DNA of 47,745 nucleotides. It comes from Campylobacterota bacterium (GTDB taxonomy: Bacteria > Campylobacterota > Campylobacteria > Campylobacterales > Arcobacteraceae). The DNA lies in the NCBI GenBank assembly GCA_003643835.1, contig QMKX01000012.1, forward strand, positions 1-47,745. The letters are read 5' to 3'. The notes beneath the pieces are model-generated. The model saw only the letters and a program-made list of their open reading frames with translations. It was not told the origin of the DNA and did not search any database. Made by a program: the position numbers and the translations under genes. The first letter of the stretch is position 1. The number at the start of each line of letters is the position of its first letter. Shown here in pieces: positions 42,718 to 47,745 of this stretch.

Positions 42718-43546
42718 CTACTTCAAAAGTGGATTATACATCATAATGGCATTGTTTTGAAATAGAAACTTTTCTGTAGTTCGTCCGTATTTATCTTTTG
42801 TGATTTTATATATCTCATTGTGTCTTGTATATGCACCCCAAAATTGCTGTTTGATACTATGATTTCTCTCTTGTATCTCATAAATTTCTCCAAGCTGTTT
42901 AGAGCAAAAAAGTTCACCGTGAAGATACTTTTCATCTAACCACAACTTCAATACAAAACTATCTTTAGTGTTGTTTTTTACTTGAAAATCAATATAGTTG
43001 TATGATAGTGTATGCACCAAATGGAACATCTCTATTTGTATCTGGAAATACATCAAAACTATGTCTAAATCTTTGGATGATAGATAGAGGACTGTGAGCA
43101 AATATCCAAAATAACAAATTGCCAAGCTGACAAAGTCCACCACCTATATCTTTTTCTATTTTGCCTTGATTTAAAGAGAGTCCATCAATATAACCTTTCT
43201 TTTTCGTAGGGCGACCTACAAGTTTCCAAAAAGAAAATATCTCATCTTGTTTTACAACTATATTATTTATATGATTTATAGCAAGTTGTAGATTTGTTCT
43301 TTTGTTTTCTTGTAGATACATATCTATATCTTTTAACTTTCTCTTTATCACTGATTTGTGTTTTTTGATACTAAAACCATCGAAAGTTTTGTCGCTTTGT
43401 TTTGCCCAAGATATATCACTATATAGCCAATATAGCTTTCTTTTGAGTATAAAATACTCCTTGCCAAGTTGTTGTCTCAATATAGACCTATTTGTTGGTT
43501 TTTTAATATTTTGCTCTTTTTTGATTTGATTGTATCCTAATAAACT
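42718..43546 (-). pseudogene. VanW-family protein, frameshifted
   Basis: The first part, up to about 43012 on the minus strand, reads LRQQLGKEYFILKRKLYWLY, then VVKQDEIFSFWKLVGRPTKK and GGGLCQLGNLLFWIFAHSPL: a typical VanW domain. In the middle of the conserved VPFG...YNYIDF segment the frame changes. The rest (TLSYNYIDFQVKNNTKDSF to the end) is in another frame. Removing one T near 43012 would join them. No ATG or GTG precedes the conserved N-terminus; only a TTG at 43480 is available, and the frame is open to 43546. The function of VanW proteins is unknown. I take this as a decayed gene unless the base is an assembly error. Confidence 0.78.
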
Positions 43547-43695: not shown

Positions 43696-44670
43696 ATAAC
43701 TATAAAAGAAGCGATACTCAAAAGTCTTGATGATATGAAAAGATTATCAACAGCCGATGAAATATATCAAAATATTTTAGAGAAAGGTTATAGTAAATTT
43801 AACAAAGGTAAAACACCTAAAAATTCAGTAGTCGCATTGTTGTTTTATTTTATACGAGACAACGATGAAAGAGTCAAAAGAGTCAAAGCCGATGGCAACT
43901 ATTATCTGTATTATCTTACTAAACATGAACAAGAAATTAATATGACAGAAACACAAACCAAACAAACACCAAAAACAAAAGAGACAAAACAAACATATCA
44001 TGAGCGAGACCTACATAAACTTTTGAGTAGTTGGCTAAAAAACAAAAATATTTACAGCAAGACAATCTTGCATGAAATATCAAAAAATAGCAAAGATGAG
44101 CATCAAAAATGGATACACCCAGATATGGTAGGAGTGGAATTTTTGAAACTCAAGACAGACACGACCAAGTCTTTCATGAAAAATCTAAATATATTAGACA
44201 CTATCAAACTATATTCATATGAGCTAAAAAAGGAGATAAGAAACGACCACGAGCTAAAAAAGTGCTACTTCCAAGCAGTATCAAATTCAAGCTGGGCAAA
44301 CTATGGTTATCTTGTAGTATTTGAGATAGACGACAACCTAAAAGATGAGATAAACAGACTTCATCAGTCGTTTGGCATAGGAGTTATAGAGCTAAAAGCA
44401 AATCCATACCAAAGCAAGATATTGCATATAGCTAAATACAAAGAACTTGACTACAAAACTATAGACAAACTATGTTTTGTAAATAAGCACTTTAAAGAGT
44501 TTATAGGTTATGGTCACAATATGCTAACTATAGAGGAAATAAATTTTAAACATATTGAAAATAGTTTTGATAAATTTTGCGATAAGTATTTTATAAATGA
44601 CAATGAAATAAATGAGCATAATGATAAATACAACATACCATACAACAAGGACAAAAGTGAAACCATATAG
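43696..44670 (+). CDS. HARE-HTH protein with PD-(D/E)XK-like C-terminus; ATA at the start position
   Basis: The N-terminal domain reads TIKEAILKSLDDM at 43699-43737, then LSTADEIYQNILEKG and GKTPKNSVVALLFYFI, a good match to the HARE winged-helix domain. The codon expected to be ATG, seven bases after AAGGA, is ATA (43696-43698), and a stop lies just upstream. The first ordinary start is ATG 43735, which would lose the first helix. After a Thr/Lys-rich linker, WIHPDMVGVEF and LYSYELKKEI resemble the PD and ExK parts of a nuclease fold. The function is unknown; DNA binding is likely. The 3' end overlaps ovoA by 14 bp. Confidence 0.72.
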   Translation: MTIKEAILKSLDDMKRLSTADEIYQNILEKGYSKFNKGKTPKNSVVALLFYFIRDNDERVKRVKADGNYYLYYLTKHEQEINMTETQTKQTPKTKETKQTYHERDLHKLLSSWLKNKNIYSKTILHEISKNSKDEHQKWIHPDMVGVEFLKLKTDTTKSFMKNLNILDTIKLYSYELKKEIRNDHELKKCYFQAVSNSSWANYGYLVVFEIDDNLKDEINRLHQSFGIGVIELKANPYQSKILHIAKYKELDYKTIDKLCFVNKHFKEFIGYGHNMLTIEEINFKHIENSFDKFCDKYFINDNEINEHNDKYNIPYNKDKSETI

Positions 44671-46756
44671 CCTAAATACAATATCTTTAAGTGGCAATGA
44701 TAAAAATAAAAAACGACAAGAGATAAAAGAGTATTTTATAAATACTTTTGATATATATGAAAGTTTGTTTGATATGTTTGTAGATGATGAAGTGTTTTAT
44801 ATCCAGTCTGAGCGAACAAGGCACCCTATGATATTTTATTATGGACATACTGCTACTTTTTTTGTAAACAAACTTATAAATATGAGCATCATACACCAAA
44901 GGATAAATCCAGATTTTGAGTCGATTTTCGCTGTAGGTGTAGATGAGATGACATGGGATGATACAAACAAAGCTAACTATATATGGCCTAGTGTTAATGA
45001 TGTGCGAGAGTATAGACAAAAAGTGCGAGAGTTTGTGTGCAAGCTTATAGACAATATCAACTTTAGCTTGCCTATCACCCCAAATAGCGATATGTGGATA
45101 GTGCTTATGGGTATAGAACATGAGAGGATACATATAGAGACATCGTCTGTGCTTCATAGGCAGCTACCTATAAAATATATCAAAGATATGCCTGAATTTA
45201 ATATATGTGAAACATCGCACAAAATTATCACAAATAGCCTTGTAGATATAAAAAAACAAAATATAAAGTTAGGGATAGATGATGCACACCATCTATATAG
45301 TTGGGACAATGAATATGGCGACTTTCAAGAGGTGGTGGATGATTTCAAAGTAGCTAAATATCTAGTTTGCAACAAAGAGTTTTTGGAGTTTATGCAAAAC
45401 GATGGTTATGTTACAAAAAAGTATTGGTGCGAAGATGGTTTGAACTATCTCAAAAAGACAAATGCCACTCACCCTGCTTTTTGGATCAAGCACAAAGACA
45501 CATACAAATACAGGGCTTTGGGTGCTGTCATAGATATGCCGTGGAATTTTCCAGTAGATGTCAATGCCTTAGAAGCAAAGGCTTTTTGTGTCTATAAAAG
45601 CCATAAAGACAAACTAAACTACAGTTTGCCAAGCGAAGCTCAACACAAAGCTATATGTCAAAGTGTGAGCTTGAAAAATATACCCCACTTTGATAGCACA
45701 AAAGCAAATCAAAACTTAACTTCTTATAGCTCATGCGATATAGACCGTCATAGTTTTGATGGCATTTATGATGTAGTAGGCAATGTATGGCAGTGGTCAA
45801 GTACTGCTATATTTGGCTTTGATGGTTTCAAACCACACAAGGCTTATGATGATTTTTCTACTCCTACATTTGATGGCAAGCATTATATTATGAACGGCTC
45901 ATCGTGGGCAAGTAGTGGCAACTTAATATCTACTACTTCACGATATGCTTTTCGAGAGCATTTTTATCAGCATAGCGGATTTAGATATATTGTCCAAGAC
46001 AAAAAAACTATGACAAGGCAAGACAACATATACGAAAGTGATAGTTTAGTTCATCAGTATTGTGAATTTCAATACGGGCAAACATATTTTGGAGTGGAAA
46101 ATTTTGCTATAAGTTGCACAAAAATAGCCAAACAATATGCTACAAATACAAGCAAAGCACTAGATCTGGGTTGTGCTACAGGTAGAGCTTCGTTTGAGTT
46201 GGCAAAGATATTTGACCAAGTTGTTGGGGTTGATTTTTCTGCTCGATTTATAAAAGTTGGCTCAAATTTGAAAAATGACGGAATTATAAGCTACTATAAC
46301 ACAACTGAAGGGGAATTAAAAACAAAAAAAGAGATAACACTGGAGCAGTTAGGATATGAAAAACTCAAAGATAAAGTCCAGTTTTGGCAAGGCGATGCTT
46401 GTAATTTGAAACAACGATTTACAAACTATGACTTGATACTCGCTATAAACTTGATAGATAGACTTTATGCTCCTAGGGATTTTTTGGAAAACATAGACCA
46501 ACGACTAAATAAAAATGGAGTGCTTATAATCACTTCGCCATATACTTGGCAAATATCATCTACAAAAAAAGAGTTGTGGTTAGGTGGCTACAAAGACGAA
46601 AGTGGTAAAGATATATATACGATAGATACTATGAAAAATATACTTGAAAAAAAGTTTGAGTTGCTTCATATACAAGATTTGCCATTTGTCATAAAAGAGA
46701 CAAACAGAAAGTATCAGCATACTGTATCGCAAGTTACCGTTTGGAGGAAAAAATAA
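44657..46756 (+). CDS. ovoA: OvoA: 5-histidylcysteine sulfoxide synthase with methyltransferase domain
   Basis: OvoA joins cysteine to C5 of histidine using iron and oxygen, and its C-terminal domain later N-methylates 5-thiohistidine to ovothiol A. This 699-residue protein shows all parts. A DinB-like domain carries the iron ligands H64 (YYGHTATFF), H155 and H159 in HERIHIETSSV. The FGE-sulfatase-like domain is about 185-450 (GIYDVVGNVWQWSSTAIFG, GFRYI). A SAM methyltransferase spans about 480-699, with motif I at 502-510 (LDLGCATGR). GTG at 44657 is chosen over an ATG at 44612 because AAGGA lies five bases ahead. The lyase gene follows after 1 bp. Confidence 0.92.
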   Translation: MKPYSLNTISLSGNDKNKKRQEIKEYFINTFDIYESLFDMFVDDEVFYIQSERTRHPMIFYYGHTATFFVNKLINMSIIHQRINPDFESIFAVGVDEMTWDDTNKANYIWPSVNDVREYRQKVREFVCKLIDNINFSLPITPNSDMWIVLMGIEHERIHIETSSVLHRQLPIKYIKDMPEFNICETSHKIITNSLVDIKKQNIKLGIDDAHHLYSWDNEYGDFQEVVDDFKVAKYLVCNKEFLEFMQNDGYVTKKYWCEDGLNYLKKTNATHPAFWIKHKDTYKYRALGAVIDMPWNFPVDVNALEAKAFCVYKSHKDKLNYSLPSEAQHKAICQSVSLKNIPHFDSTKANQNLTSYSSCDIDRHSFDGIYDVVGNVWQWSSTAIFGFDGFKPHKAYDDFSTPTFDGKHYIMNGSSWASSGNLISTTSRYAFREHFYQHSGFRYIVQDKKTMTRQDNIYESDSLVHQYCEFQYGQTYFGVENFAISCTKIAKQYATNTSKALDLGCATGRASFELAKIFDQVVGVDFSARFIKVGSNLKNDGIISYYNTTEGELKTKKEITLEQLGYEKLKDKVQFWQGDACNLKQRFTNYDLILAINLIDRLYAPRDFLENIDQRLNKNGVLIITSPYTWQISSTKKELWLGGYKDESGKDIYTIDTMKNILEKKFELLHIQDLPFVIKETNRKYQHTVSQVTVWRKK

Positions 46757-46757
46757 A

Positions 46758-47745
46758 ATGTTTAATTTTGATACATCAACAGACAGACAAAACTCAAATA
46801 GTGAAAAATACACAAAAAGAGATAAACTATTTGGCACAAACGATATAACACCTATGTGGGTAGCTGATATGGATATAGATACACCTATGTTTGTCTTAGA
46901 TGCTATCAAGGAAAGATTAAAGCACCCAGTATTAGGATATGAAAGCATACCACAAAGTATGTATCAAGCTCAAATATCTTGGCTTGATAGGCGATACGGT
47001 GCTAAATTTGATACAGCCGATATGTTATATAGTCCCAGTGTGGTAGCTAGTATCGGCATAGCTATAGAGGCATTTAGCGATATTGGTGATAATATCATAG
47101 TGCAAACTCCTGTGTATCCGCAGTTTTTCAAATCAATAAAAAGATACAAAAGAGATATATTAGAAAATCCTTTGATAGAAAAAGATGATGGCAGTTGGAT
47201 TATGGATATAAAAAACCTAAAATCACAAATAAACAAAAAAACAAAACTATTGATACTTTGCAATCCGCACAACCCAGTAGGAAGGTCGTGGCACAAAGAC
47301 GAGTTAGAGCAGTTGCTTGATGTTTGTATAAAAAACAACATAATAGTATTTAGCGATGAGATACATTGTGATCTGGTTTATACTCCACACAAGCATACGG
47401 TATTTTCTAGTATAGATGACAGGGCAAAAGATATAACAGTATCGGCTTTTGGAGTGGGCAAGAGTTTCAACTTAGCTGGTCTATCCACAAGCACGGTTGC
47501 GATACAAAATAAAAAAATAAAAAATAAATTTATGGAAGTTTATAATAAAATTCATTTTCCACAAGGTAGTATATTGTCCTGTGTAGCATTTGAAACGGCT
47601 TATAAATATAGTGACATTTGGTTAGAAGAGCTCAAAATTCACTTATGGCAAAACTATATATCTTTGAAAAATTTATGCGATAAATATCCACAATATATAA
47701 AAATCACACCAATAGAGGCAACTTATTTAGCTTGGCTTGATTGCA
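46758..47745 (+). CDS. ovoB: PLP-dependent C-S lyase, MalY/PatB type; probable OvoB (3' end outside window)
   Basis: The first 329 residues of a fold-type I aminotransferase-like enzyme are present. The MalY/PatB signature MWVADMDIDTP is at 33-43. CNPHNPVGR (168-176) and SDEIHCDLVY (199-208) bind PLP, and K235 in GVGKSFNLAGL is the Schiff-base lysine. Such enzymes cleave cystathionine-like thioethers. Placed 1 bp after ovoA with a strong GGAGG, it is the natural candidate for OvoB, the lyase that splits 5-histidylcysteine sulfoxide to 5-thiohistidine. Cystathionine beta-lyase is the alternative. The gene runs past the window end without a stop. Confidence 0.85.
   Translation, partial: MFNFDTSTDRQNSNSEKYTKRDKLFGTNDITPMWVADMDIDTPMFVLDAIKERLKHPVLGYESIPQSMYQAQISWLDRRYGAKFDTADMLYSPSVVASIGIAIEAFSDIGDNIIVQTPVYPQFFKSIKRYKRDILENPLIEKDDGSWIMDIKNLKSQINKKTKLLILCNPHNPVGRSWHKDELEQLLDVCIKNNIIVFSDEIHCDLVYTPHKHTVFSSIDDRAKDITVSAFGVGKSFNLAGLSTSTVAIQNKKIKNKFMEVYNKIHFPQGSILSCVAFETAYKYSDIWLEELKIHLWQNYISLKNLCDKYPQYIKITPIEATYLAWLDC

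Follow-up and report, generated by a model that had tools for sequence, protein, structure and literature searches.

A probable operon for ovothiol A biosynthesis in a member of the Campylobacterales, encoding OvoA and a predicted co-translated OvoB-type PatB lyase

Described ovothiol systems and the new locus

In the published pathway for ovothiol A, OvoA generates a sulfoxide, which a broad-specificity PLP-dependent β-lyase, OvoB, converts to 5-thiohistidine, and the C-terminal domain of OvoA carries out the methylation (PMC12631010, PMC9103826). The OvoA/OvoB pair of Erwinia tasmaniensis (PMC9103826), to which we liken the present locus by its description, has the same three-step scheme of OvoA, PLP lyase and OvoA methyltransferase. 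The 5-thiohistidine N-methyltransferase OvoM (PDB 9bxl) is homologous to the C-terminal domain of the OvoA studied here (E 6.5e-86), but OvoM was solved as a free-standing construct whereas the methyltransferase of our locus is fused to OvoA. The nearest solved sequences to the lyase of the locus are PatB, annotated as a cystathionine β-lyase, and related C-S lyases (6qp3, 4dgt); these share with it the fold-type I PLP lyase family, TIGR04350 and the catalytic lysine, and the present lyase is set apart by its position directly downstream of ovoA. The best solved match of our OvoA, covering residues 29-713 and hence nearly the whole length, is PDB 8khq, which we take to be OvoA_Th2 of Hydrogenimonas thermophila, a member of the Campylobacterales. 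A paper on OvoA_Th2 (ACS Catal 2023) is among the entries in the reference list of PMC11677154. The 8khq chain matches with zero differences over 699 residues the OvoA of a genome (G058) from the same order as our genome, which identifies that order as the Campylobacterales and agrees with the original prediction of a likely campylobacterotal source. OvoA_Th2 also shares the fusion of sulfoxide synthase and methyltransferase, and in G058 a PatB lyase directly follows its gene; our OvoA is about 49% identical to it, while the lyases are just 36% identical.

The stretch of DNA analyzed (the window, 47,745 nucleotides) is the entire contig 12 of a 40-contig, 1.43 Mb, 96% complete assembly. The identity of its two terminal genes, their domains, active-site residues and packing are matters of direct observation, and comprise the following features:

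44657..46756, + strand: ovoA (699 aa from a GTG start), a fusion of 5-histidylcysteine sulfoxide synthase with 5-thiohistidine N-methyltransferase (TIGR04344, TIGR04345, PDB 8khq)
44846..45139, + strand: iron-ligand histidine region, H79/H170/H174 in 714-aa numbering, equal to H64/H155/H159 from the GTG (alignment to 8khq and 37 relatives)
45845..45847, + strand: codon of a conserved tyrosine, Y412 in 714-aa numbering (alignment to EgtB 4x8b; invariant YDDF motif in relatives)
46031..46753, + strand: C-terminal methyltransferase region of OvoA (TIGR04345 residues 474-713; PDB 9bxl OvoM, E 6.5e-86)
46743..46749, + strand: Shine-Dalgarno-like GGAGGA motif for the lyase, within the 3' end of ovoA (direct reading of the sequence)
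46758..47745, + strand: PatB-family PLP-dependent C-S lyase, candidate ovoB (TIGR04350); 3' end missing, about 67 residues by comparison with the congeneric genome G002

Taken together, family models, conserved residues, gene coupling, trees and co-occurrence make it very probable, as far as sequence can tell, that the locus is an operon for ovothiol A biosynthesis comprising OvoA and a co-translated OvoB-type PatB lyase, and thereby support the original prediction that the cell makes ovothiol A from two genes. By analogy to characterised homologues, the iron center of OvoA would combine histidine, cysteine and O2 into 5-histidylcysteine sulfoxide, the co-translated PLP lyase in the role of OvoB would cleave this to 5-thiohistidine, pyruvate and ammonia, and the C-terminal methyltransferase of OvoA would methylate the imidazole of 5-thiohistidine to give ovothiol A. 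The genome encodes a haem-copper oxidase, suggesting that the cell is likely to meet O2. A search of the genome for EgtD gave no match, which argues against ergothioneine as the product.

OvoA, its active site and its methyltransferase

The stop-free reading frame in the ORF list spans 44612-46756 on the + strand, and numbering from 44612 gives 714 aa. Within this frame the GTG at 44657, which has an AAGGA motif 5 nt upstream, is probably the right start. The homologous position is used in two congeneric genomes: in G002 it is a GTG, with no earlier start downstream of an in-frame stop, and in G001 it is an ATG. In both it is preceded by an AAGGA-like motif, and these starts back the earlier choice of the same GTG. 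Promoter-like sites in the region are about as frequent as in shuffled sequence; therefore, we claim no promoter. Immediately upstream lies a + strand ORF (43735-44670; 311 aa) of no recognized family, which overlaps the start of ovoA by 14 bases and could be part of the same transcription unit. Beyond it, on the - strand, is a VanW-like gene (42718-43480) that is apparently split into two overlapping frames, at 42989-43480 and at 42718-43143, which match distinct parts of PF04294; the split appears to be a frameshift or an assembly error.

The OvoA protein scores 602.5 bits with TIGR04344 (ovoA_Nterm; curated cut-off 400) and 324.2 bits with TIGR04345 (ovoA_Cterm; curated cut-off 170), and falls below the NCBIfam cut-offs for EgtB (168.9 bits against 360) and SenA (145.7 bits against 420), so that it is not recognized as an EgtB. 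Pfam models detect DinB_2, FGE-sulfatase and methyltransferase domains, and after 8khq the next structural matches are EgtB-IV, followed by the methyltransferases OvoM and OvsM. A single-protein scan of the genome contigs returned one match, distant and weak. The iron-ligand histidines lie in the sequence motifs YGH... and HERIHIE and are conserved in all aligned relatives (n=37) other than a broken copy in one genome (G055). In an alignment to 4x8b, Y412 (...HKAYDDF...) falls opposite Tyr377, the catalytic tyrosine of EgtB. Thus, by alignment, the protein combines a three-histidine iron site with a tyrosine at the catalytic position, as found in OvoA, and with both family models above cut-off it bears out the original reading of a full OvoA with iron ligands and a fused methyltransferase. 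We also considered whether the phenylalanine of an AIFGF motif, where 8khq has the tyrosine of PIYPF, marks a lost catalytic tyrosine; this was ruled out, as Tyr377 aligns with the tyrosine of YDDF. In the exceptional genome G055 (L039, 4661-6466 and beside) ovoA is broken: its N-terminal part matches in a piece of its own that contains an in-frame TGA, and the main frame is devoid of the first iron-ligand region.

The methyltransferase bears on the nature of the end product. Other 5-thiohistidine products, such as N-acetyl-5-thiohistidine, are known (PMC12631010), and certain related OvoAs have shortened methyltransferases, so one might suppose that the main product here is an unmethylated or differently modified 5-thiohistidine rather than ovothiol A. 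We regard this as highly improbable, since the methyltransferase in the window is full length, scores 324 bits where the cut-off is 170 and retains the SAM, NLIDRLY and SPYTW motifs, and no acetyltransferase gene is recognized beside the operon on its assembled side, the contig ending in the lyase on the other. Ovothiol A hence remains the predicted product.

The downstream PatB-family lyase

A single base separates the TAA of ovoA (46754-46756) from the ATG of the lyase (46758), with the GGAGGA motif just upstream, exactly as in the original description of a PLP-dependent lyase 1 bp after ovoA with a strong ribosome binding site. The lyase scores 412.3 bits with the TIGR04350 PatB C-S lyase model (cut-off 340), even though its sequence breaks off at residue 329 out of roughly 396. 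It has K235 as the PLP lysine and conserves the NPHNP and SDEIH motifs; thus, it belongs to a family of PLP-dependent C-S lyases and has the catalytic lysine, as would be required of an OvoB. The homolog in G002 (397 aa) is 83% identical over the shared part and contains a C-terminal FRLN-type arginine, the corresponding region of the window lyase being beyond the contig end. The truncation of the window lyase stems from the assembly, as the contig itself, and not just the window, ends at 47745. A check of the 3' end and of the following genes had been proposed along with the original prediction: the truncation was confirmed, and when the C-terminal part of the G002 homolog was compared with the genome's own assembly no match to the missing end was obtained. 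The contigs of two congeneric genomes (L034, L036) likewise end within or shortly after the lyase, suggesting that in this genus assemblies are prone to break at this gene.

The genomic context points to 5-histidylcysteine sulfoxide as the likely substrate of the lyase. Its assignment as OvoB is nevertheless putative, because the family also holds cystathionine β-lyases and other cysteine-conjugate β-lyases. It could accordingly be proposed that the enzyme is a general lyase of the PatB/MalY type that merely resides in the ovoA unit, with another PLP enzyme, or this lyase only incidentally, catalyzing the OvoB step. Such a proposal draws on the annotation of its closest solved relatives as cystathionine β-lyase PatB and related lyases, and on the description of the published OvoB itself as a broad-specificity β-lyase (PMC12631010). 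However, the lyase is the only PatB match above cut-off in its genome, which in addition encodes a distinct enzyme with a strong match to the PF01053 family (426 bits); the latter could have a methionine or transsulfuration role, implying that the PatB lyase need not be the sole sulfur-amino-acid lyase of the genome. The comparative evidence below also weighs against a general lyase, and we consider that explanation improbable overall.

Distribution and evolution of the ovoA-lyase pair

The comparison used a set of 60 genomes, comprising the window's own and its relatives, with curated cut-offs applied throughout. OvoA is above cut-off in 38 of these 60 (and in 49 of 249 genomes drawn from the class) and the PatB lyase in 40. 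Both are found in 35 genomes, OvoA only in 3, the lyase only in 5 and neither in 17, a co-occurrence that is strong (Fisher p 5e-8, relatedness not corrected for) and that speaks against a general lyase; the five relatives with PatB and without OvoA favor such a lyase, as they imply that PatB lyases have other uses. In 17 of the 38 OvoA-bearing genomes, spanning several families, the lyase lies directly after ovoA, the junctions being direct abutments, 1-base gaps or overlaps, and this tight coupling again argues against a general lyase. In 18 further OvoA-bearing relatives the lyase is elsewhere in the assembly, which counts against the operon reading, and it was absent from the neighbors read beside three unlinked OvoAs. 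The coupling that had been singled out as worth documenting is therefore real, but at 17 of 38 OvoA genomes it is not rare. Indeed the pair is ordinary: it occurs in many related genomes, its gene order already accompanies a solved OvoA structure, and the accepted pathway is unchanged. What it adds is a small-genome Campylobacterales lineage among the likely ovothiol makers, and its recurrence across the Campylobacterales, including beside the structurally solved Hydrogenimonas OvoA, provides a convenient set of lyases for OvoB assays.

In both the OvoA and lyase trees the window proteins group with three congeneric genomes and with G051, a genome from another family. The branching order of the five-genome clade, (G051,(G003,(window,(G001,G002)))), is identical in the two trees, indicating that ovoA and the lyase were inherited together within the window clade. 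This congruence, in conjunction with the adjacency in 17 of 38 genomes, provides the genetic association with ovoA expected of an OvoB, and is a further point against a general lyase. Across the wider set the linked lyases do not form one clade and the starred branches of the lyase tree require linkage to have changed three times or more, with gains and losses not distinguishable from this tree; one starred clade of the OvoA tree consists of 17 unlinked members. A tentative possibility, which we think rather doubtful, is that ovoA gained a PatB-type lyase as its neighbor on more than one occasion in the Campylobacterota, with the window-clade lyase being a separate recruit and possibly a sulfoxide-specialised OvoB.

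A more unusual observation than the operon in the window concerns seven related OvoAs outside it (L041, L042, L043, L045, L046, L047 and L052), in which the methyltransferase region spans 169-177 residues as against about 250-259. The four of these that were scanned fall below the ovoA_Cterm cut-off, and the short C-termini have altered SAM motifs and are devoid of SPYTW and NLIDRLY. All seven sit directly before a PatB lyase, and the product of these OvoAs may differ from ovothiol A.
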